From NCBI GenBank assembly GCA_022827885.1, contig JAJEIP010000066.1, forward strand, positions 1 through 64,000: a stretch of 64,000 nucleotides of DNA, read 5' to 3'. Of the stretch, positions 2,176-63,200 are shown one piece after another. The stretch comes from Candidatus Poribacteria bacterium (lineage in GTDB: Bacteria > Poribacteria > WGA-4E > WGA-3G). The first letter of the stretch is position 1. Every line of letters starts with the position of its first letter. The notes under the pieces were generated by a model. The model had not been told where the DNA came from and ran no database searches. It saw nothing but the letters and a program-made list of their open reading frames with translations. The translations under genes were made by a program, and so were the position numbers.

Positions 2176-3060
2176 CTAATTTGAATCATTTGGTGCCGCC
2201 TTAGAAAGCGCCAACCGTCCGGCGAGATCCATGATGAACTGATACGCGACGCGCCCTGAACGTCCACTTGAAGATGCCTCCCATTCCAACGCAGCCCGGT
2301 GCAACGCTTCCGTCGGAACGGATACCCCGTGTTTCTGCGCGTAATGCGAGACAATCTGCAAATAGGTATCCTGTGAAATCCTGTGAAAAGCGAGGCGTAA
2401 CCCAAAACGGTCACTCAGCGAGACCTTTTCCTCTGTCGCTTCACGCGGATACAACTCATCTTCGTCATTCTGGGGGTATCGGTTCTCTTGGACCTGTCGC
2501 GGCATCAAGTGCCGACGGTTCGAGGTGGCATAGATCAAGACGTTGTCTGGGCAAGCAGAGATTCCACCCTCTAACATCGCTTTCAACTCGCGATACTCAG
2601 GTTCATCTTCGCTAAAGGCGAGATCATCACAGAAAAGGATATACCGTTCGGGACGTTCCCATAGCACCTCGGCAATTTCTTGCAGATGAACGAGTCCCTC
2701 CTTGCTGACACCGATTAACCGAAGTCCGTCGTCAGCATAGCGTGCCAGCATCCCCTTGACGAGCGAAGATTTACCCGTGCCGCGGTCCCCCCACAACAGG
2801 ACATGGTTGGCAGGCAGACCCTGTAGAAACTGACGTGTGTTTCTATCGAGTTCTTGCTCCTGCCGTTCTATCCCAATCAAATCCGACAGCCCCACGAGGC
2901 TTGGATGTTTAACGGGAATTAAATGCCCCGATCCATTCTGTGATCGCCACCGGAAAGCGATATACTCGTCAAGTTGGGCGTCAAGTCCCGCACTTGAGGG
3001 GTGAACCGGGAATCCGCCCAAGTGGGTCAACAAGCTATCTGCCTTCTCCAGCAGTTGCAT
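2176..3060 (-). CDS. DUF815-family AAA-like ATPase
   Basis: This matches DUF815 ATP-binding proteins: a Walker A GDRGTGKSS near residue 90, a Walker B-like FCDDLAF, the LKAMLEGG segment and the family hallmark ATSNRRHL. The reading frame continues upstream to an ATG at 3138, but those extra 26 codons are the translation of a dispersed repeat (they read LTEPQGKIK). I prefer the ATG at 3060, which has AGGAAG eight bases upstream and gives MQLLEKADSLL. The protein is cytosolic and about 295 residues long, normal for the family. The cellular role of DUF815 is not established. The gene upstream on the same strand is a HAD phosphatase, separated by about 240 bp of repeats. Confidence 0.85.
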   Translation of the reverse strand: MQLLEKADSLLTHLGGFPVHPSSAGLDAQLDEYIAFRWRSQNGSGHLIPVKHPSLVGLSDLIGIERQEQELDRNTRQFLQGLPANHVLLWGDRGTGKSSLVKGMLARYADDGLRLIGVSKEGLVHLQEIAEVLWERPERYILFCDDLAFSEDEPEYRELKAMLEGGISACPDNVLIYATSNRRHLMPRQVQENRYPQNDEDELYPREATEEKVSLSDRFGLRLAFHRISQDTYLQIVSHYAQKHGVSVPTEALHRAALEWEASSSGRSGRVAYQFIMDLAGRLALSKAAPNDSN

Positions 3061-3090
3061 AAAAAGTTCTTCCTGAGTTCGCGTTTTTTC

Positions 3091-3290
3091 ATTTTTAATT
3101 TTTCCTTGCGGTTCGGTCAGGTGGCTTTTGGGTTTCACGTGCTTCTCCGTATACTCGCCTGCGTGTTTTTGCTTGTGGTTTTTGCTTGGTGTCTTTGCTT
3201 GGGCATTTCTGCGTATTTCTGCGTATTTCTGCGTATTGTTGCAGGCTTTGCAATTTTTCCTTGCGGTTCGGTCAGGTGGCTTTTGGGTTG
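3091..3290 (-). repeat. Start-codon repeat, long variant, with duplicated 3' module
   Basis: Two copies of the same 3' module, reading on the minus strand AACCCAAAAGCCACCTGACC then GAACCGCAAGGAAAAATT, occur at 3091-3135 and 3251-3290. Between them lies GCCTGCAACAATACGCAGAAA..., with a ten-base unit (GCAGAAATAC) repeated about three times, and AAAACACGCAGGCGAGTATACG. The same phrases recur at 47939-48092 before nuoN. The 3' module overlaps the extended N-terminus of the DUF815 gene. Confidence 0.85.
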
Positions 3291-3296
3291 TTGATA

Positions 3297-3956
3297 CTAT
3301 TGTAATCTCCTCACCGATTCTAAGCTCAGCAATCCAGACACATCTTCAAGTATCGCATAAACGTCGTAATTTTCAAAAGCCGTTCGTGGTGTGACACCCG
3401 AAAGCACAGCAACAAACGCAACACCAGCACGTCGCGCCGTTTCAGCATCCGTCACACTATCCCCGACGTAGAGACAATTTTCGGGAAGACTCCCTGTTTG
3501 TGCAACCGCCGATAGTAACCCTTCAGGATCCGGCTTATACGGTGCGTCCCTACCCCCAACGATGACTTCAAACGCCTCCAGTAGATTTTCTTTCTCAAGA
3601 ATCAGTTGGATGTAGCGACGCCATTTCTGAGAAACGATAGCGAGGTGGATACCGAGCCCCTGCAATGCCTTTACCGTCTGTGGCACCTCTGCGTAAAACT
3701 CCGCCAACGCAACCATTGTCTCATCCGCGCGTTGGAGAAACAGACGGGTAAATTCATCAACATGCTTGGTGTATGCGTCTCCTGCTAACCTTGTCAGTAT
3801 ATCCGGTAGCGACAAACCGATTGCCCGACGCACAGCGGCATCGGAAGCCGTTGGCAAACCCATTTTTTTAAACGCATAATTGACACCATCAATTGTGCCT
3901 CGCGCTGAATCTACCAATGTATAGTCAAAATCGAAGATAATAGTTTGGATTGGCAT
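3297..3956 (-). CDS. HAD-family hydrolase, phosphoglycolate phosphatase-like
   Basis: A 219-residue haloacid-dehalogenase-fold phosphatase. Motif I is DFDYTLVDS at the N-terminus (nucleophile Asp), a helical cap follows, motif III Lys is in YKPDPEG and motif IV is GDSVTDAETA. The architecture fits the phosphoglycolate phosphatase / beta-phosphoglucomutase subgroup; the actual phosphate ester is unknown. I chose the ATG at 3956 (MPIQTIIFD), preceded by GAGG about nine bases upstream, over an upstream TTG at 3971. The stop codon lies directly beside the dispersed repeat at 3091-3290. It is probably soluble and monofunctional. Confidence 0.85.
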   Translation of the reverse strand: MPIQTIIFDFDYTLVDSARGTIDGVNYAFKKMGLPTASDAAVRRAIGLSLPDILTRLAGDAYTKHVDEFTRLFLQRADETMVALAEFYAEVPQTVKALQGLGIHLAIVSQKWRRYIQLILEKENLLEAFEVIVGGRDAPYKPDPEGLLSAVAQTGSLPENCLYVGDSVTDAETARRAGVAFVAVLSGVTPRTAFENYDVYAILEDVSGLLSLESVRRLQ

Positions 3957-7997: not shown

Positions 7998-8984
7998 ATG
8001 GAAAAGCGAATCCTTGGACGGACAGGACTTGAAGTGAGTGTTTTAGGGATGGGTGGACTCTTTGTCTCAACGGCTGGTGGCAGGAATCCCACTGACGGAC
8101 GTAACGCTATCCGCCGCGCCCTGGAACTCGGTGTCAACTACGTCGATACCGCACCGAGCTACGGTAACAGTGAAGAGGTCGTCGGAGAGGCTTTGGATGG
8201 CGTGCTGCAACCGCACTATCTGTCCACGAAAATCGGTGGAAGACCGCAACCCTTCGATCCAAAGGATAAACACCTCTTGCGTCAGTCGGTTGAAGAGAGT
8301 CTGCGCTTGTTGAAAAGGGACACCATCGATATTTTGATGGTGCATGAACCCGATCGTCCGGGACAATACGATTGGTGGACAAGCCACGAGACATTTGACG
8401 GACCCGTCTGTGAGGTATTAGCCGAGCTCAAAGCGGAGGGAATTGTCCGTTTCACGGGATTAGGGGGCACAACCGCACATCAACTCCCCGCAATTATGGC
8501 GACAGGAGTCTACGATGTCGTGCTGGCAGCGCAGAACTACAGTCTACTCTGGCGTGAAGCAGCAATCTCAATTTTTCCGGAAGCGAAACGACAGAATATG
8601 GGGATTGTCATCGGGGCTCCCTTACAACAAGGCGCATTATCACGCCGCCACGCCGAGGTAGAAACGGGGGCATGGTGGCTGAGTCGTCCACGTCAGGAAC
8701 AGTTCAAAGCACTCTACCAGTTTTTGGATGAAATCGAACTCTCGCTGCCAGAGGCAGGTATCCGCACGGTTATATCCAATCCCGATATTTCTACTGTGTT
8801 GGTGGGCGCGAGGTCCGTAGAGGAGGTTGAACAGAATGTTCGTGCTGTTGAAGCCGGTCCATTGCCCTCAGAAATATTAGAGCGACTTCAGGAGATAGCG
8901 GATATGGTGCCGTTCCGACCCTTTGAAGAACCCCATAGTTTGGCGTTCGGTAGGAAATACAAGGGGCCAGGGCACGCACGGTGA
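7998..8984 (+). CDS. Aldo/keto reductase
   Basis: A 328-residue NADPH-dependent oxidoreductase with the (beta/alpha)8 aldo-keto reductase fold. The catalytic tetrad is visible: Asp in YVDTAPSYG, Tyr in the same motif five residues later, Lys in STKIGG and His in MVHEPD. The N-terminus MEKRILGRTGLEVSVLGMGG is typical, and the C-terminal part has VISNPDISTVLVGARS, which binds the cofactor phosphate. GGAGG lies about eight bases before the ATG. It resembles L-galactose or D-threo-aldose dehydrogenase-like AKRs, but the substrate is not readable. It stands alone, convergent with the lipoprotein at 9048-9815. Confidence 0.88.
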   Translation: MEKRILGRTGLEVSVLGMGGLFVSTAGGRNPTDGRNAIRRALELGVNYVDTAPSYGNSEEVVGEALDGVLQPHYLSTKIGGRPQPFDPKDKHLLRQSVEESLRLLKRDTIDILMVHEPDRPGQYDWWTSHETFDGPVCEVLAELKAEGIVRFTGLGGTTAHQLPAIMATGVYDVVLAAQNYSLLWREAAISIFPEAKRQNMGIVIGAPLQQGALSRRHAEVETGAWWLSRPRQEQFKALYQFLDEIELSLPEAGIRTVISNPDISTVLVGARSVEEVEQNVRAVEAGPLPSEILERLQEIADMVPFRPFEEPHSLAFGRKYKGPGHAR

Positions 8985-28314: not shown

Positions 28315-28371
28315 GTTAAAAAACGGAGCCTCCAACTCGAACACGGGAATCATCAAGCGCTAAAGCATCCC

Positions 28372-28399
28372 ACCTATCCGCAAGGTAAAATTAAAAGTG
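28372..28399 (+). repeat. Start-codon repeat, short copy
   Basis: CACCTATCCGCAAGGTAAAA followed by TTAAAAG matches the 3' end of the dispersed repeat. Here it ends 11 bases before the ATG at 28411 instead of abutting it, so this copy may have drifted or the real start may differ. Confidence 0.65.
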
Positions 28400-30626: not shown

Positions 30627-30698
30627 TTATTAGCAATCAGCTTTCAGTTAAAAGGTCTTCGTCTCAGAAAAATATTTTCTTCAGGGAGTTTCAAATCC

Positions 30699-30788
30699 CG
30701 TAGCCCGTAAGCGTAGCGGAGGGCGGATTTGAGAGACGCACGTTATAGTCCAAACGCACGAACTTTACCCGCAAGGTATAATTAAAAA
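30699..30788 (+). repeat. Start-codon repeat, full-length copy (about 90 bp)
   Basis: Begins CCGTAGCCCGTAAGCGTAGC, then GGAGGGCGGATTTGAGAGAC, and ends CCGCAAGGTATAATTAAAA immediately before the ATG of the aminotransferase at 30789. Relatives of the same length lie at 42949-43039, 46303-46394, 59986-60080, 60583-60676 (minus) and 63110-63200. The 3' end has AAGG 12 bases and TATAAT six bases before the start codon. Confidence 0.85.
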
Positions 30789-31964
30789 ATGAATATATTT
30801 TCAAAACGCTTAAATCGACTCCCACCCTACATGTTCGGCAAACTTAGGCAGCTAACACACGAACGTCGGCAACAAGGCATTGATGTTATCGATTTGGGGA
30901 TGGGCAATCCGAATCAACCGACCCCGCAACCTATTATTGATAAATTGACGGAAGCGGCACAAGAACTCAGAAATCACCGCTATTCCGTTTCGCGTGGTAT
31001 CTACAACCTGCGCAGGGAAGTCAGTTGGCATTATGAACGCCGGTTCGGTGTGGATATTGATCCGAATGAAGAGGCAATCGCTGTTGTTGGCACGAAAGAG
31101 GGGCTCGGACACCTTGCTTTAGCCTTGATTGATAATGGTGACTTAGCGATGGTCCCAAATCCGACCTTTCCCATTCACATGTACAGCATTGTGCTCGCAG
31201 GTGGAAGCGTTGTGAGCATACCCCTCACAGAAGAGAACGATTTCATCCCCTCGCTCACCGAAATCACACGGGACATTTGGCCCAGACCCAAGGTGTTAAT
31301 CTTAAGTTTTCCACACAACCCAACCGGTGCTGTCGTCGACCTCGGATTCTTTGAAGAGATTGTTGCCTTCGCGAAACGCCAAGAGATTGTTGTAATCCAC
31401 GATTTGGCGTATGCAGACATTGTTTTTGATGGCTACAAGGCACCGAGTCTCTTGCAAGCAAAAGGCGCGAAGGATATCGGTATCGAATTTATCTCTCTGT
31501 CTAAATCCTACAATATGGCGGGCTGGCGGTGTGGGTTTGCTGCTGGAAACCGTGAGATTGTCGAAGCACTCGCTCGGATTAAAGGATATTACGATTACGG
31601 GATTTTCGCACCGATCCAGGTTGCCGCGATTATGGCGCTACGGACCCCAGAGGATACGGTGATGGAAAACGCTGCCGTTTACCAAAAACGCCGGGATGTG
31701 CTGGTTGATGGTCTCAACAGGATCGGATGGAAGGTTCCAAAGCCGCAGGCTTCAATGTTCGTCTGGGCACCGATTCCTGACGCATGGAAACACCTCAGCT
31801 CCATGGAATTCGCCATGAAACTTCTGAGCGAAGCAGAGGTCTGTGTGTCTCCCGGCGCAGGATTCGGACACAACGGTGAGGGCTATATTCGTATTGCCCT
31901 TGTGGAGAACGAAGATCGAATTCGTCAAGCCGTGCGTCAGATCCGACGATCGTTGTTCGGTTAA
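30789..31964 (+). CDS. PLP-dependent aminotransferase, AlaC-like
   Basis: A 391-residue fold-type I aminotransferase close to the AlaC / LL-diaminopimelate aminotransferase group, using alanine, pyruvate or glutamate family substrates. Seen: RLPPYMFGKLRQL and DLGMGNPNQPTP at the N-terminus, FPHNPTGAVVD, DLAYADIVFDG and the PLP lysine in SLSKSYNMAGWRCGF. The ATG directly follows a full copy of the start-codon repeat, which supplies AAGG at 12 bases. The stop codon overlaps the stop of the convergent PhyH gene (31961-31964). Only the subgroup assignment is less certain. Confidence 0.88.
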   Translation: MNIFSKRLNRLPPYMFGKLRQLTHERRQQGIDVIDLGMGNPNQPTPQPIIDKLTEAAQELRNHRYSVSRGIYNLRREVSWHYERRFGVDIDPNEEAIAVVGTKEGLGHLALALIDNGDLAMVPNPTFPIHMYSIVLAGGSVVSIPLTEENDFIPSLTEITRDIWPRPKVLILSFPHNPTGAVVDLGFFEEIVAFAKRQEIVVIHDLAYADIVFDGYKAPSLLQAKGAKDIGIEFISLSKSYNMAGWRCGFAAGNREIVEALARIKGYYDYGIFAPIQVAAIMALRTPEDTVMENAAVYQKRRDVLVDGLNRIGWKVPKPQASMFVWAPIPDAWKHLSSMEFAMKLLSEAEVCVSPGAGFGHNGEGYIRIALVENEDRIRQAVRQIRRSLFG

Positions 31965-42918: not shown

Positions 42919-42948
42919 AAGACAAATTGGGAAAGTGTTAGCACCAGA

Positions 42949-43039
42949 CCCGTAGCTTGAAACGAAGTGGAAAGCGGATTTAAGAAAGGCCCGTCATAAG
43001 CCAAACCACCGTGCCTTAACCGCAAGGTATAATTAAAAA
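42949..43039 (+). repeat. Start-codon repeat, full-length copy in nuo operon
   Basis: CCCGTAGCTTGAAACGAAGT, then GGAAAGCGGATTTAAGAAAG, ending AACCGCAAGGTATAATTAAA just before the ATG of nuoJ. About 91 bases, aligning along its length with 30699-30788 and 46303-46394. It fills most of the nuoI-nuoJ gap. Confidence 0.85.
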
Positions 43040-46206: not shown

Positions 46207-46302
46207 ATGAAATTTTTAATTGATGGCCGGCTGGACTGCGTTTCACTTCCTCCCGCCCGCGTGGGGATATAAGGGATGTGCAGGTGCCTGGTATAGTATA
46301 AA

Positions 46303-46394
46303 ACCCGTAGCCCGTAACGAAGTGGAGGGCGGATACGAGGAAGGCACGTCAAGGACGAAACCCACTTCATTACTCCGCAAGGTAAAATTAAAAA
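46303..46394 (+). repeat. Start-codon repeat, full-length copy in nuo operon
   Basis: ACCCGTAGCCCGTAACGAAG, then TGGAGGGCGGATACGAGGAA, ending TCCGCAAGGTAAAATTAAAA just before the ATG of nuoM. About 92 bases. It shares the whole GTAGCCCGTAACG...GGAGGGCGGAT portion with 30699-30788. TATAAT is here TAAAAT. Confidence 0.85.
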
Positions 46395-47906: not shown

Positions 47907-47938
47907 AAACGGCTTCTGTCAATGAGATAAGTTGGAAA

Positions 47939-48092
47939 GCCTGCAACAATACGCAGAAACACCCCGCTGAATGCCACACGCGCGTTCAGCGTTGATTCGC
48001 AAAAACACGCAGGTGGATATACGCCGATAAACGGTATTGGACCAACGCACCTGACCGAACCGCAAGGTATAATTAAAAAGTATAATTAAAAT
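47939..48092 (+). repeat. Start-codon repeat, long variant, before nuoN
   Basis: GCCTGCAACAATACGCAGAA at the 5' end, AAAAACACGCAGGTGGATAT in the middle and CACCTGACCGAACCGCAAGG at the 3' side, followed by TATAATTAAAAAGTATAATT. The TATAATTAAAA unit is duplicated before the ATG. This is the same long variant as 3091-3290. Confidence 0.85.
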
Positions 48093-52600: not shown

Positions 52601-53476
52601 ATGGCACACACAAGCGAAGCATTAACCGATTTAGATTGGCACCCACTCTCCAATGAGGACATACAGCACTTTGACGATAAAGGCTACCTCATCATCCGAA
52701 ATGTGCTGGACTCGGAGACGGTTGACAAACTGATTGAAGCGAGTGATCGACTCATAGCGAGTGATCTGCGTGAGAAACGCCAAACATACCCCAACGGCTT
52801 ATACGACGGCTTCCGAAATTGCGTCGCTACTGACGATGCCTTCATCCCACTACTGGCGCACAAGACAATGCTCTCCGTTGTGACGCAACTTCTCGGTGCA
52901 CATTTGCAACTGGTGGTCTCACACCTGATATACAAATACCCCGATCCACCGGGCACACCCGATACCGCTCGCGTCCCGGGTTGGCATCGCGACTACGGCA
53001 CCGCGACGAAGGTCCTTGGCGACAAGGTGCCACGTGTTTTACTAAAATGCGCCTACTACCTGACCGATTTGAGTGAATCCAATTCCGGTGCAACACTCGT
53101 TGTTCCCGGAAGCAACAATCTTCCTGATCCGATTCCGGTCCCAGAAGGGCAGACGGATCCAAAGGGGGCATTTGAACCGAGTTTACGTCCTGGGGACTGC
53201 CTGTTGTTTGAGAACCGTATCTTGCACGCAGGAGGTGCCAACTTAACCGATCAAATTCGTAAGGCTGTGATGTTCGGCTATGGGTACCGATGGCTGATGC
53301 CGCTGGACTATCGAACGCAGGAACAGACGCTGTTGGATAAACTATCGCCACTGGGTCAGTATCTGGTTGGAGAACCCTGCAAGAAAACGAAAGAATATTA
53401 TGCCGGTGGTGGTGACAGCCCGCTCGCCGCATGGTGTGAAGAGCACGGTGTTCCAGCGATAAGACCAATCCATTAA
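52601..53476 (+). CDS. Phytanoyl-CoA dioxygenase family protein, tandem copy 1
   Basis: A 291-residue Fe(II)/2-oxoglutarate oxygenase. DDKGYLIIRNVLDS at the N-terminus, iron motif GWHRDYGTAT (H-x-D, near residue 128), NSGATLVVPGSNN, distal His in ILHAGGANL and Arg in IRKAVMFGY. GGAGG precedes the ATG. It is about 75 percent identical by eye to the gene at 53686, including the leader around the Shine-Dalgarno site, so the two arose by recent tandem duplication. Substrate unknown. Confidence 0.9.
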   Translation: MAHTSEALTDLDWHPLSNEDIQHFDDKGYLIIRNVLDSETVDKLIEASDRLIASDLREKRQTYPNGLYDGFRNCVATDDAFIPLLAHKTMLSVVTQLLGAHLQLVVSHLIYKYPDPPGTPDTARVPGWHRDYGTATKVLGDKVPRVLLKCAYYLTDLSESNSGATLVVPGSNNLPDPIPVPEGQTDPKGAFEPSLRPGDCLLFENRILHAGGANLTDQIRKAVMFGYGYRWLMPLDYRTQEQTLLDKLSPLGQYLVGEPCKKTKEYYAGGGDSPLAAWCEEHGVPAIRPIH

Positions 53477-53631: not shown

Positions 53632-53685
53632 TGAGAACAAAAAAACAAAGGATTGTCCCCGCTCCAAAACATCGGAGGAAAAGCA

Positions 53686-54561
53686 ATGGCACACGCAAAC
53701 GAAGCAGCAATTGATATGGACTGGTATCCGCTCTCTGATGAAGACATACGCCATTTTGACGACACAGGCTATCTCATCGTCCGGAACGTGCTGGATTCGG
53801 ATACGCTTGGGGAACTCATTGAAGTCAGCGATCGACTCATGGCGAGCGAGCGACGTGAGAATCGCCAACACAACTCCAACAACCGATACGACAGTTTCCG
53901 AAATTGTATCTCTATTGACGATGCATTCATTCCCCTCATCGCGCAGGAGACCATCCTCCCTATTGTCGTGCAACTTCTCGGGGCAGACTTGCAACTGATG
54001 ACCTCACACCTTATCTATAAACACCCGGATCCACCTGATACGCCAGACACCGTCCGTATGCCGGGGTGGCACCGCGACTACGCTATCGCAACAAGAACAC
54101 ACGGTAACAAACTACCACGCATTTTACTAAAATGCGCCTACTACTTTACCGATTTGAGTGAACCCAATTCCGGCGCAACGCTCGTCGCTCCCGGTAGCAA
54201 CAATCTCCTTGAACGGATCAGAATTCCAGAGGGGCAGGCAGATCCAGAAGGCGCCCTCGAACCGAGCCTGCAACCCGGCGATTGCCTACTGTTTGAGAAT
54301 CGGATCTTTCATGCAGGGGCAACGAACCTGACTGGCCAGACCCGAAAAGCTGTGATGTTTGGCTACGGTTACCGTTGGGTGATGCCGATGGACTATCGGA
54401 CACAGGAACAGACGGTGTTGGATAAGTTGTCGCCACTGGAGCAGTATCTGGTCGGCGAACCCTTTAAAAAGACGAAAGAGTATCATCCGGGTGGCGGTGA
54501 AAACCCACTCGCGCCATGGTGTGAACAGCACGGCGCCCCAGCCGTGAGACCCGTCGATTAA
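53686..54561 (+). CDS. Phytanoyl-CoA dioxygenase family protein, tandem copy 2
   Basis: A 291-residue paralogue of the gene at 52601. Start at the ATG at 53686 (MAHANEAAIDMD), with GGAGG upstream as in copy 1; the frame opens at 53653 but that is leader. Iron motif GWHRDYAIAT, distal His in IFHAGATNL, Arg in TRKAVMFGYGYRW. All catalytic residues are intact, so both copies may be active. A run of four 24-base hairpin repeats follows its stop codon. Confidence 0.9.
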   Translation: MAHANEAAIDMDWYPLSDEDIRHFDDTGYLIVRNVLDSDTLGELIEVSDRLMASERRENRQHNSNNRYDSFRNCISIDDAFIPLIAQETILPIVVQLLGADLQLMTSHLIYKHPDPPDTPDTVRMPGWHRDYAIATRTHGNKLPRILLKCAYYFTDLSEPNSGATLVAPGSNNLLERIRIPEGQADPEGALEPSLQPGDCLLFENRIFHAGATNLTGQTRKAVMFGYGYRWVMPMDYRTQEQTVLDKLSPLEQYLVGEPFKKTKEYHPGGGENPLAPWCEQHGAPAVRPVD

Positions 54562-54569
54562 CGCATTTG

Positions 54570-54661
54570 GGGAGGGATTTGTAACCCCAATGTGGGAGAG
54601 GTTTGTAACCCCAATATGGGAGGGGTTTGTAACCCCAATGTGGGAGGGGTTTGTAACCCCG
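54570..54661. repeat. Four tandem 24-base hairpin repeats
   Basis: The unit GAGGGGTTTGTAACCCCAATGTGG (quoted as GAGGGGTTTGTAACCCC plus AATGTGG) is repeated about four times with minor changes. Each unit contains the palindrome GGGGTTTGTAACCCC. The array fills the gap between the convergent PhyH genes and may act as a strong bidirectional terminator. A single related palindrome lies at 63849-63869. Confidence 0.85.
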
Positions 54662-54662
54662 A

Positions 54663-55472
54663 TTACGTCAATGTAATAACGTCCTTTTTAACGATCTCTT
54701 TCGTGTCATAGTGCCCTGCCTGGGAGATGAGTTCCAGGGTTTCCGGTGACAATCGGGTTCTAACCTCTGGCGGCACTCGACTCTCCCCGCGATGCTGTGG
54801 TCTGTAGCGTAAGGTCAGAACACAACGATAGCGATCTTTCGGTTTCCAAGGCAGCGCACCGTGCGTCAGAAGCTCAGAGATAATCACGAAATCCCCTGCC
54901 TTTGGTGTGATGTTAACGACCCCTTCTGGAATATCATCGGCATCCTTAATTTTGCCGTTGTTATAGAGGTGTTCAGGACGATCGAAAAAGGTTTTGTGTG
55001 TGCCGGGAACGACCAGCAACCCGCCATCTCCCGGATGCACGTCGTAGAGGTAAGGAAAAACGACAAAATCGTCACAAAAGATTCGACCATTTCGGACCTC
55101 ATAACGGTTGCAGTGCCATCCAAAATCTTCTCGCGCACAATGCAAGCGGAGTCCTTCTTCCGACTCCGACGCACCCGCCCGATCCGCAATCATTGTACCA
55201 CGCATCAATTGCGGTTTGTTATTCGTCAGTTCCTTAATGATGGGCCACGTCGATCGGTGCATCGTGAGTGCCTCTAAAGGTTTCGCGAAGGCAAAGCCGT
55301 TTGGGAGGTTTTTTTCACTGGAATCGAATCCGGGTGGAAGTTCTTCGGTAGGGGTATTGATGTATTCATTCGCTGCTGCTTGTGCCGCTTTCAGCTCTTC
55401 GTCCGTCATGACGTTCTCTAAGTGAAGGTATCCGGTAACATCGAAAAGATACCGTTGTTCAGGGGTCATCAT
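54663..55472 (-). CDS. PhyH-family protein lacking the HxD iron motif
   Basis: A 269-residue protein clearly of the PhyH family: FDVTGYLHLENVMTDEE at the N-terminus, GGLLVVPGTHKTFF in the core, the distal His in ELLTHGALPWKPK, and the 2-oxoglutarate Arg in DRYRCVLTLRYRPQH. The region that should hold H-x-D instead reads LHCARED and, nine residues later, WHCNRYE: the residue two after His is Ala or Asn, and no other H-x-D is near. Gene 6895 has LHAD at the first position. Loss of the Asp is known in SyrB2-type iron halogenases, where Ala or Gly leaves room for chloride; inactive or re-ligated enzymes are alternatives. The ATG is at 55472 or 55469. Confidence 0.85.
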   Translation of the reverse strand: MMTPEQRYLFDVTGYLHLENVMTDEELKAAQAAANEYINTPTEELPPGFDSSEKNLPNGFAFAKPLEALTMHRSTWPIIKELTNNKPQLMRGTMIADRAGASESEEGLRLHCAREDFGWHCNRYEVRNGRIFCDDFVVFPYLYDVHPGDGGLLVVPGTHKTFFDRPEHLYNNGKIKDADDIPEGVVNITPKAGDFVIISELLTHGALPWKPKDRYRCVLTLRYRPQHRGESRVPPEVRTRLSPETLELISQAGHYDTKEIVKKDVITLT

Positions 55473-59881: not shown

Positions 59882-59985
59882 TTTTCTAACTATGGCCTCC
59901 CAGCCTGCCCTCTACTTCGTTGCGAGCAGGTTTTCAGTAAGTCTTGGACACGGGGGTATGCGAAGGGTCCGCGAAAGAAACAAAG

Positions 59986-60080
59986 CACGTAGCACGTAAT
60001 ATAATGGAGTGCGGATTTAAGGAACACATTTGATAGTCCAAGCCCACGTAGTTCCTCCGCAAGGTAAAATTAAAATTGAT
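59986..60080 (+). repeat. Start-codon repeat, full-length copy not before a plus-strand gene
   Basis: CACGTAGCACGTAATATAATGG at the 5' side (shown in part: CACGTAGCACGTAATATAAT), then GGAGTGCGGATTTAAGGAAC and TCCGCAAGGTAAAATTAAAA. It points away from any start codon. Its complement supplies the TAA stop of the SpoU methyltransferase at 60070. This is the one clear full-length copy that does not precede a gene. Confidence 0.8.
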
Positions 60081-60582
60081 GTAAGATGTGGTAGGCGGCG
60101 ATACCGAGCGAGACATGAACGTTCAATGAGGCACCCGCGCCATACATCGGAAGATAAATGATCCTGTCACAGGCAGCAAGCGTTCGTTTCGTTACCCCGT
60201 GGTCCTCATGCCCTACGATAAGACAGATTTTGTCTGGATAGTCTATCTCATCATAACGGATGGATTGCGCAGTAACTTCTAAAGCGCAGCTCGTGTAGCC
60301 ATCGGCTTTCAGCGATGCAATCGCGTCCGCTGCCTGCTCTGTGTATCGCCATTTGACCCGTCGGTGTTTCCCGCGCGCCACTTTGCGCACCAGTGGATGG
60401 GGCGGTTGTGCGCTGATACCTGTCAAAATCAGTTCTTTCACACGGCACGCGTCCGCTATCCGAAATACGGAACCGACATTCACCGGGTCTTGGACGTCTT
60501 GTAAGATAAAAACCAGTTCTCTTTCCGGCGGTTTCACCTGCTTCAGAAAGTCTTTGAGCGGTTTGCCGCGTAGTTGCTTCAA
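60070..60582 (-). CDS. SpoU/TrmH-family RNA 2'-O-methyltransferase
   Basis: A SPOUT-fold methyltransferase that should 2'-O-methylate tRNA or rRNA using SAM. Motifs: ILQDVQDPVNVGSVFRIADA near the N-terminus, IVGHEDHGV in the middle, and the knot motif IYLPMYGAGASLNVHVSLGIAAYHIL in outline. The frame is open to an ATG at 60633, but those 17 residues (…RLTEPQGKLKI) are the translation of the start-codon repeat. By analogy with other copies the start is the TTG at 60582 immediately after the repeat, giving LKQLRGKPLKDFL. About 170 residues, short for RlmB. Its stop codon lies in another repeat. Confidence 0.85.
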   Translation of the reverse strand: MKQLRGKPLKDFLKQVKPPERELVFILQDVQDPVNVGSVFRIADACRVKELILTGISAQPPHPLVRKVARGKHRRVKWRYTEQAADAIASLKADGYTSCALEVTAQSIRYDEIDYPDKICLIVGHEDHGVTKRTLAACDRIIYLPMYGAGASLNVHVSLGIAAYHILHQF

Positions 60583-60676
60583 TATTTTTAGTTTTCCTTG
60601 CGGTTCGGTCAGGCGGGTTTGGATAGGGGACATTCCGCTCCGTACATCCGCCCTCCACTACGTTACGGGCTACGCG
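60583..60676 (-). repeat. Start-codon repeat, full-length copy (minus strand)
   Basis: On the minus strand: CGCGTAGCCCGTAACGTAGT, GGAGGGCGGATGTACGG, then CCGCCTGACCGAACCGCAAG followed by GAAAACTAAAAATA and the TTG start of the methyltransferase. It joins the 5' half of the short type (GTAGCCCGTAACG) to the CTGACCGAACCG of the long type, which ties both variants into one family. Confidence 0.85.
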
Positions 60677-60700
60677 CTTTTCTAAATGCACATCCGACTC

Positions 60701-63101: not shown

Positions 63102-63109
63102 TATGAAAC

Positions 63110-63200
63110 CCAAGCCTGTAAGCGTAGCGGAGGGCGGCTCGTGAGAAGGTACGTCAAAGATGAAACCCGCATTATTCATCCGCAAGATAAAATTAGAAAA
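63110..63200 (+). repeat. Start-codon repeat, full-length copy before TPR gene
   Basis: CCCAAGCCTGTAAGCGTAGC, then GGAGGGCGGCTCGTGAGAAG, ending ATCCGCAAGATAAAATTAGA just before the GTG at 63201. AAGG has become AAGA here. About 91 bases. Confidence 0.8.

Follow-up and report, generated by a model that had tools for sequence, protein, structure and literature searches.

Known small mobile repeats

Small mobile repeats that form in-frame fusions with genes are known from several bacteria and include the RPE, ERIC/RU, and Correia families (PMC2229807, PMC2759123, PMC10969869). The Rickettsia palindromic elements (RPE) are mobile palindromic repeats of about 100–150 bp which can be fused in frame into conserved proteins (PMC2229807, PMC10969869). 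ERIC/RU-1 and other enterobacterial MITEs are described as intergenic, transcribed, and structured, with in-frame fusions and loss of a native stop codon (PMC2759123). The REP/REPIN sequences consist of a GTAG-led hairpin found in hundreds of extragenic copies and in tandem clusters (PMC3116915). The available portions of the RPE, ERIC/RU, Correia, and REPIN descriptions mention no repeat that terminates at start codons and provides an initiation site. A literature search, mainly of openly accessible titles, yielded no report on intergenic repeats of Poribacteria.

Here, we analyzed a repeat family of sponge-associated Poribacteria, with an element of about 95–100 bp present in hundreds of copies. 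Like an RPE, it is a small mobile repeat fused in frame to conserved genes, RuvC, CoaBC, HemC, GalE-like, and Pup ligase among others. Compared by description, RPEs insert within reading frames, whereas the Poribacteria element ends at a gene boundary and supplies a start or an antisense stop. Insertion inside reading frames with a conserved element peptide, by which RPEs are recognized, was not found; the frame read through the element is variable and in many cases closed, and the 3′ ends of the element lie at gene boundaries. ERIC/RU-1 is likewise intergenic and structured and forms in-frame fusions, but these are occasional in ERIC, for which the available part of the source describes neither flush positioning at start codons nor an SD-bearing terminus. 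The GTAG-led hairpin, the hundreds of copies, and the tandem clusters are common to the element and REP/REPIN. The element differs from the latter in having no RAYT association, in being mostly single and directional, and in carrying a long conserved non-palindromic tail. It is short, non-coding, multicopy, and dispersed, as MITEs are; terminal inverted repeats are absent, and single copies have unlike ends (CAAAAC... and ...AATTAAAA). In our assessment, the family probably consists of small non-autonomous structured mobile repeats of one Poribacteria genus, in which the 3′ tail is a ready-made translation-initiation site.

Copies of the element in the window

The window, i.e., the whole analyzed stretch of 64,000 nucleotides, belongs to a 208-kb contig; the genome measures 5.13 Mb. 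All six copies listed in the preliminary description were recovered, with cmsearch E-values from 6e-14 to 2e-20, and five of them adjoin a start codon, as it had stated (Table 1). The 3′ motif CCGCAAGGTANAATTAAAA gave 11 matches in the window at up to three mismatches, while 0.06 were expected. The start of the SpoU gene belongs to the minus-strand copy; the gene is bounded by two elements, with the copy at 60583 beginning it and the copy at 59986 ending it. In the minus-strand ORF 2176..3138, the GTG inside the element is the sole canonical start upstream of the conserved frame, a case in which the tail does not lie outside the gene. The window also contains two tandem genes (52601–53476 and 53653–54561) with a common 300-bp stretch at 76% identity.

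Table 1. Coordinates of the element copies and their parts in the window.
Feature	Position	Strand	Evidence
Element in frame with ORF 2176..3138; in-frame GTG 3138 inside the element	3092..3169	-	
Degenerate upstream copy	3247..3328	-	
Diverged element or tail; PhyH gene follows, with the tail in frame and ATG 28411 lying 14 nt beyond it	28318..28397	+	
Full-length element, flush with ATG 30789 (aminotransferase 30789..31964)	30693..30788	+	cmsearch 83.0 bits
P1 hairpin of the type copy, AGCCC...GGGC, with GT before it	30702..30723	+	covariation over 57 copies
Tail CCGCAAGGTATAATTAAAAA: SD-like AAGG, ATT codon, antisense TAA	30769..30788	+	
Full-length element, flush with ATG 43040 (nuoJ); absent in G053, G066, G081, G068, G075	42945..43039	+	
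Full-length element, flush with ATG 46395 (nuoM); 36-nt native leader with GGAGG here in G068/G075/G081	46300..46394	+	
Variant element before nuoN ATG 48093; P1 loop expanded, tail duplicated in part	48002..48092	+	
Full-length element; tail TTA 60070-60072 is the TAA stop of convergent SpoU (ORF 60070..60633, minus)	59982..60076	+	
Full-length element at SpoU start (TTG 60582, minus strand)	60584..60680	-	
Full-length element before GTG 63201 (TPR gene)	63104..63199	+	

Structure of the element

The element consists of a 5′ GTAG hairpin (P1), a variable middle, and the tail CCGCAAGGWAWAATTAAAA. The conserved unit extends from about CAAAAnC, just 5′ of GTAG, through AATTAAAA; upstream of it there is no common sequence. 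The tail consensus is CCGC-AAGG-WAWA-ATT-AAA(A). P1 comes in interchangeable sequences (GCCC..GGGC, GCTC..GAGC, GCTT..AAGC, and GCCTGC..GCAGGC), and its covariation was directly observed: among 57 copies, 97.8% of cells are paired, with 43 two-sided changes, a result matched by none of 500 shuffles. Each of the four counted pairs changes on both sides in some copy. The middle occurs in several subtypes; its pairing is weaker than that of P1, register-specific, and arranged around a nearly invariant GG..CC.

Two recurring inserts, AATACGCAGAAATACCCAAGCAAAAAC (in either orientation) and TATGCCTTAAATGGCATAATTTGTCTTWGCTTTACATT, frequently make the P1 loops larger, as at 47930–48060 and 3160–3270 of the window and at many other loci. 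A smaller sibling family was also seen, with the tail GACCATAAATTAAAA immediately after a P1-like hairpin, often head to head with the element (window 46207–46230; L041, c. 8480–8540; L184, c. 3430–3490). Its tails number 13 in 1.26 Mb, some of them by chance.

Copy number and distribution

The source genome contains 267 tails of the CCGCAAGGTAW... form, or 298 with W at both positions, at up to one mismatch; the reversed tail pattern, used as a control, gave no match genome-wide. The covariance model found 143 elements in 1.26 Mb of own-genome sequence, made up of 20-kb stretches picked without regard to the repeat, which extrapolates to about 580 per genome. Copies frequently lie in tandem, with 21-bp tail duplications and 142-bp arrays among the cases. 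On the complete chromosome OX638352.1 (L108, 2652–3522), seven tails at 142-bp spacing form a tandem array of the element.

In a pattern scan of GTDB with one genome per species, at least 80 loci were found, and all among the matches listed belong to Candidatus Poribacteria. The source genome and eight relatives (nine genomes) carry 144–450 copies each, the rest of the genus fewer than 85, and genomes elsewhere in the phylum about zero. High copy number is limited to one sub-clade of one genus.

Mobility and leader replacement

Among G000, G053, G062, G067, and G083, matched loci carry the element in one genome and lack it in another, and such differences were seen between genomes whose flanks are 85–97% identical. 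In comparisons of occupied with empty sites, the alignment of the flanking genes extends to the boundary; the sequence between the genes either takes the place of the old spacer or is a new insertion. One insertion (#161) splits a gene pair that overlaps by ATGA in a relative. Neither a consistent target-site duplication in the empty-site pairs compared nor a consistent target sequence across the empty sites examined was found.

Before nuoM, three relatives (G068/G075/G081) retain a 36-nt native leader with GGAGG, and the other relatives have an element, of differing subtypes and in one case much degraded, up to the same ATG; in G061, a second copy lies upstream of the flush one. The same pattern is seen at nuoN and nuoJ, and at nuoN the native GGAGG leaders of G068/G075/G081 are replaced flush at the ATG. 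By sequence comparison, the native leader including the Shine-Dalgarno sequence is replaced up to the ATG.

The term mobile initiation cassette, proposed in the preliminary description, is largely borne out in both its parts. Mobility is supported by occupied and empty orthologous sites in close relatives, together with the clade-limited burst in copy number. The initiation-cassette idea is supported by replacement of the native SD and leader up to the ATG and by start codons that the element supplies. Among dispersed copies in the own-genome sample, no two are more than 87% identical, and for two species-specific insertions the nearest paralogue in their own genome is about 90% identical. Because of these identities, the mobility, as judged from the alignments, belongs to the diversification of the genus and not demonstrably to the present.

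Position relative to gene boundaries

For 373 tails from several genomes, an ATG lies 4–15 nt past the tail ATT in 42% (155/373), compared with 3–6% at random positions. Random placement relative to starts, the outcome that would have spoken against the reported association, was tested and is contradicted by these values. At +16 to +60 of the tail, an ATG was found in only 3% of the 373, compared with 5–9% at random. In the same set, the tail TTA coincides exactly with the TAA stop of a convergent gene in about 10% (at most 1% at random positions), and 14–31% of tails have no assigned boundary. In own-genome sequence, 55% of tails have, at +4 to +15, the canonical start of a frame that is open for 80 codons or more; the same measure gave 10–13% at random positions and other ATTAAA sites (11–13% for the ATTAAA controls). 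The distance from ATT to ATG is +7, +8, or +9 in 55 of 66 cases.

The idea that the repeat inserts at gene starts is too narrow. The 3′ end also adjoins the ends of genes on the opposite strand, to which it supplies TAA, and about 15% of copies are fused in frame with the first codons replaced. Since tails also adjoin antisense gene ends and fuse in frame, the association is with coding-sequence boundaries. In native genes of the source genome, SD motifs lie 6–10 nt upstream of the start, and the AAGG of the element lies at 11–12 nt. This spacing is on the shoulder of the native optimum, i.e., workable and not tuned; therefore, the position follows the end of the element and not the SD optimum.

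It is very improbable that the association with starts is an artefact, produced either by A/T-rich leaders that bear an SD or by erroneous start calls. The tail does resemble a leader (AAGG, A/T-rich), but the similarity extends over 90 bp with a covarying hairpin, and the ATG starts align with those of orthologues free of the element. The artefact is refuted by the ATTAAA controls, the boundary statistics, and the nuo leader comparison. A cis-regulatory RNA leader of the riboswitch or attenuator class, kept for regulation and spread by duplication, would likewise be structured, co-oriented with genes, and end at the start codon. We regard this as improbable, although less so than an artefact: the downstream genes are unrelated, the antisense copies lie at gene ends, and sister species differ at the same gene, which indicates turnover. 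Moreover, an Rfam search of the window gave two tRNAs only, with no structured-RNA match to the element above the gathering score, and a built-in promoter at the 5′ end of the element was not indicated (16 -10-like sites observed, 16.5 in shuffled sequences).

In-frame fusions and the start codon

About 15% of copies are followed by a gene that is open in the ATT-AAA frame and lacks a nearby start. Of 18 such fusions, 14 have an ATG or GTG in frame inside the element, compared with 30 of 114 other copies (26%; p = 4e-5). Pfam domains begin 2–15 residues past the junction in Pup ligase, GalE-like, HemC, DUF6785, and homocysteine methyltransferase genes. In CoaBC of four species, the ancestral ATGGAATTCAGAGATCGGACGATTATC became CCGCAAGGAAAAATTAAAAATATTATC, with seven codons lost and the frame retained. 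In RuvC, the element-internal ATG is conserved across the genus, and the ATT codon drifts to ATA, AGT, ACT, and others. The use of AUU as the start of all in-frame fusions was mostly rejected, given the 14 of 18 that carry an element-internal ATG/GTG and the ATG kept by RuvC. A putative AUU start survives only for genes that have no canonical start at all.

AUU is a rare start codon, used by infC of E. coli. The element would have the AUU initiation codon in common with infC; here, in contrast, AUU would come from a repeat and be given to unrelated genes. DUF309 has the element in frame in 11 genomes, with the ATT intact in 11/11, and in 8/11 there is no canonical start between the upstream stop and the conserved protein; its element-less relatives start with ATGGACAC. 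An ICMT-like gene has no canonical start upstream of the protein in eight species, with the ATT intact in all, and in element-less relatives it has an ATG. A permease has ATT as the only start in two species. Two RuvC genes have lost the internal ATG and kept the ATT, which is kept in only about 3 of 18 with the ATG. We lean slightly towards AUU initiation at the putative tail-donated starts, on the basis of conservation among species with common ancestry. The wider proposal, i.e., that a portable initiation site with AUU replaced native starts, that DUF309 and the ICMT-like gene start at a repeat-donated AUU in at least eight species, and that the mover targets coding-sequence boundaries, is doubtful.

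Proposed mechanism and possible site-directed insertion

A copy established between genes replaces the old spacer, in many cases completely, and its end is flush with the neighbouring coding sequence. Three outcomes were observed. In the first, a native ATG, GTG, or TTG directly follows the tail, and the tail AAGG would become its Shine-Dalgarno sequence 11–12 nt upstream. In the second, the first codons are lost and the gene is fused in frame; the start would be an ATG or GTG inside the element, which lengthens the N-terminus slightly, or the tail AUU if there is no internal ATG/GTG. In the third, antisense outcome, the tail TTA provides the TAA stop of a convergent gene. The flush position would arise because a copy is retained only if it gives the boundary a functioning start or stop again. 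We think that such selective retention explains it, with site-directed insertion as the main alternative.

According to this alternative, a recombinase or reverse-transcription machinery would target start/stop codons or an A-rich context, and the flush junction would result from the mechanism and not from selection. Several observations agree with it: the species-specific insertions #161, #170, #183, and #187 are already flush, the +16 to +60 zone is nearly empty, and at nuoM different subtypes hold the same flush place in different species, with the extra upstream copy in G061. The near-empty zone and the repeated flush occupation of nuoM also argue against plain random insertion. However, some junctions fall within the first 7–8 codons (CoaBC, #190) or, at #159, within the last ones, which argues against a machinery that recognizes the codon itself; in addition, the empty sites offer no consistent target sequence, and the enzyme was not found. 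Site-directed insertion is a possible but tentative explanation. Replacement of the old spacer after insertion is also possible as an alternative to targeted insertion at gene starts.

Search for the mobilising machinery

We infer a DNA-level transposition step by a putative enzyme. A cognate enzyme was not found, and no autonomous copy was seen between outward-facing ends. It is unlikely, although less so than a regulatory leader, that the element is a REP/REPIN of a RAYT (Y1) transposase. The 5′ GTAG followed by an imperfect hairpin, which is the covarying P1, is REP-like, and head-to-head pairs and tandem clusters are present. However, the flanks of Y1/RAYT genes in the source genome and relatives carry other GTAG-type repeats, and P1 of the element was found beside 0 of the 28 Y1 loci in the eight relatives searched, so RAYT/Y1 mobilisation was rejected. 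Inverted partners occur in only 18/136 copies (control 0/136), which also led to rejection of a composite unit bounded by TTTTAATT...AATTAAAA as the general arrangement.

The RAYT-like Y1 transposase genes of the own genome (L195, L196, L197) and of relatives (L286–L303) each have their own flanking repeats (GGTAGGTGCGGTTTnnAACCGCACC; GTGGGAGGGCTTTGTAAGCCCG; GGTAGGAGGGAACTCCGATTCCC; GGCGAGGTTAGGAAACCTCGCC). A 24-bp tandem repeat at 54546–54687 of the window, GGGAGGGGTTTGTAACCCCAAT(GT), resembles the repeat beside the RAYT gene of L196.

Significance

It is usually assumed that point mutation drives the evolution of start codons and ribosome-binding sites. Between sister species, the repeat described here swaps both wholesale, and hundreds of genes are affected, nuo, ruvC, coaBC, and hemC among them. 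The family offers a natural experiment on leader replacement, on growth of the N-terminus, and on the tolerance of initiation, including AUU. Automatic start annotation in the phylum Poribacteria is likely wrong for many genes.
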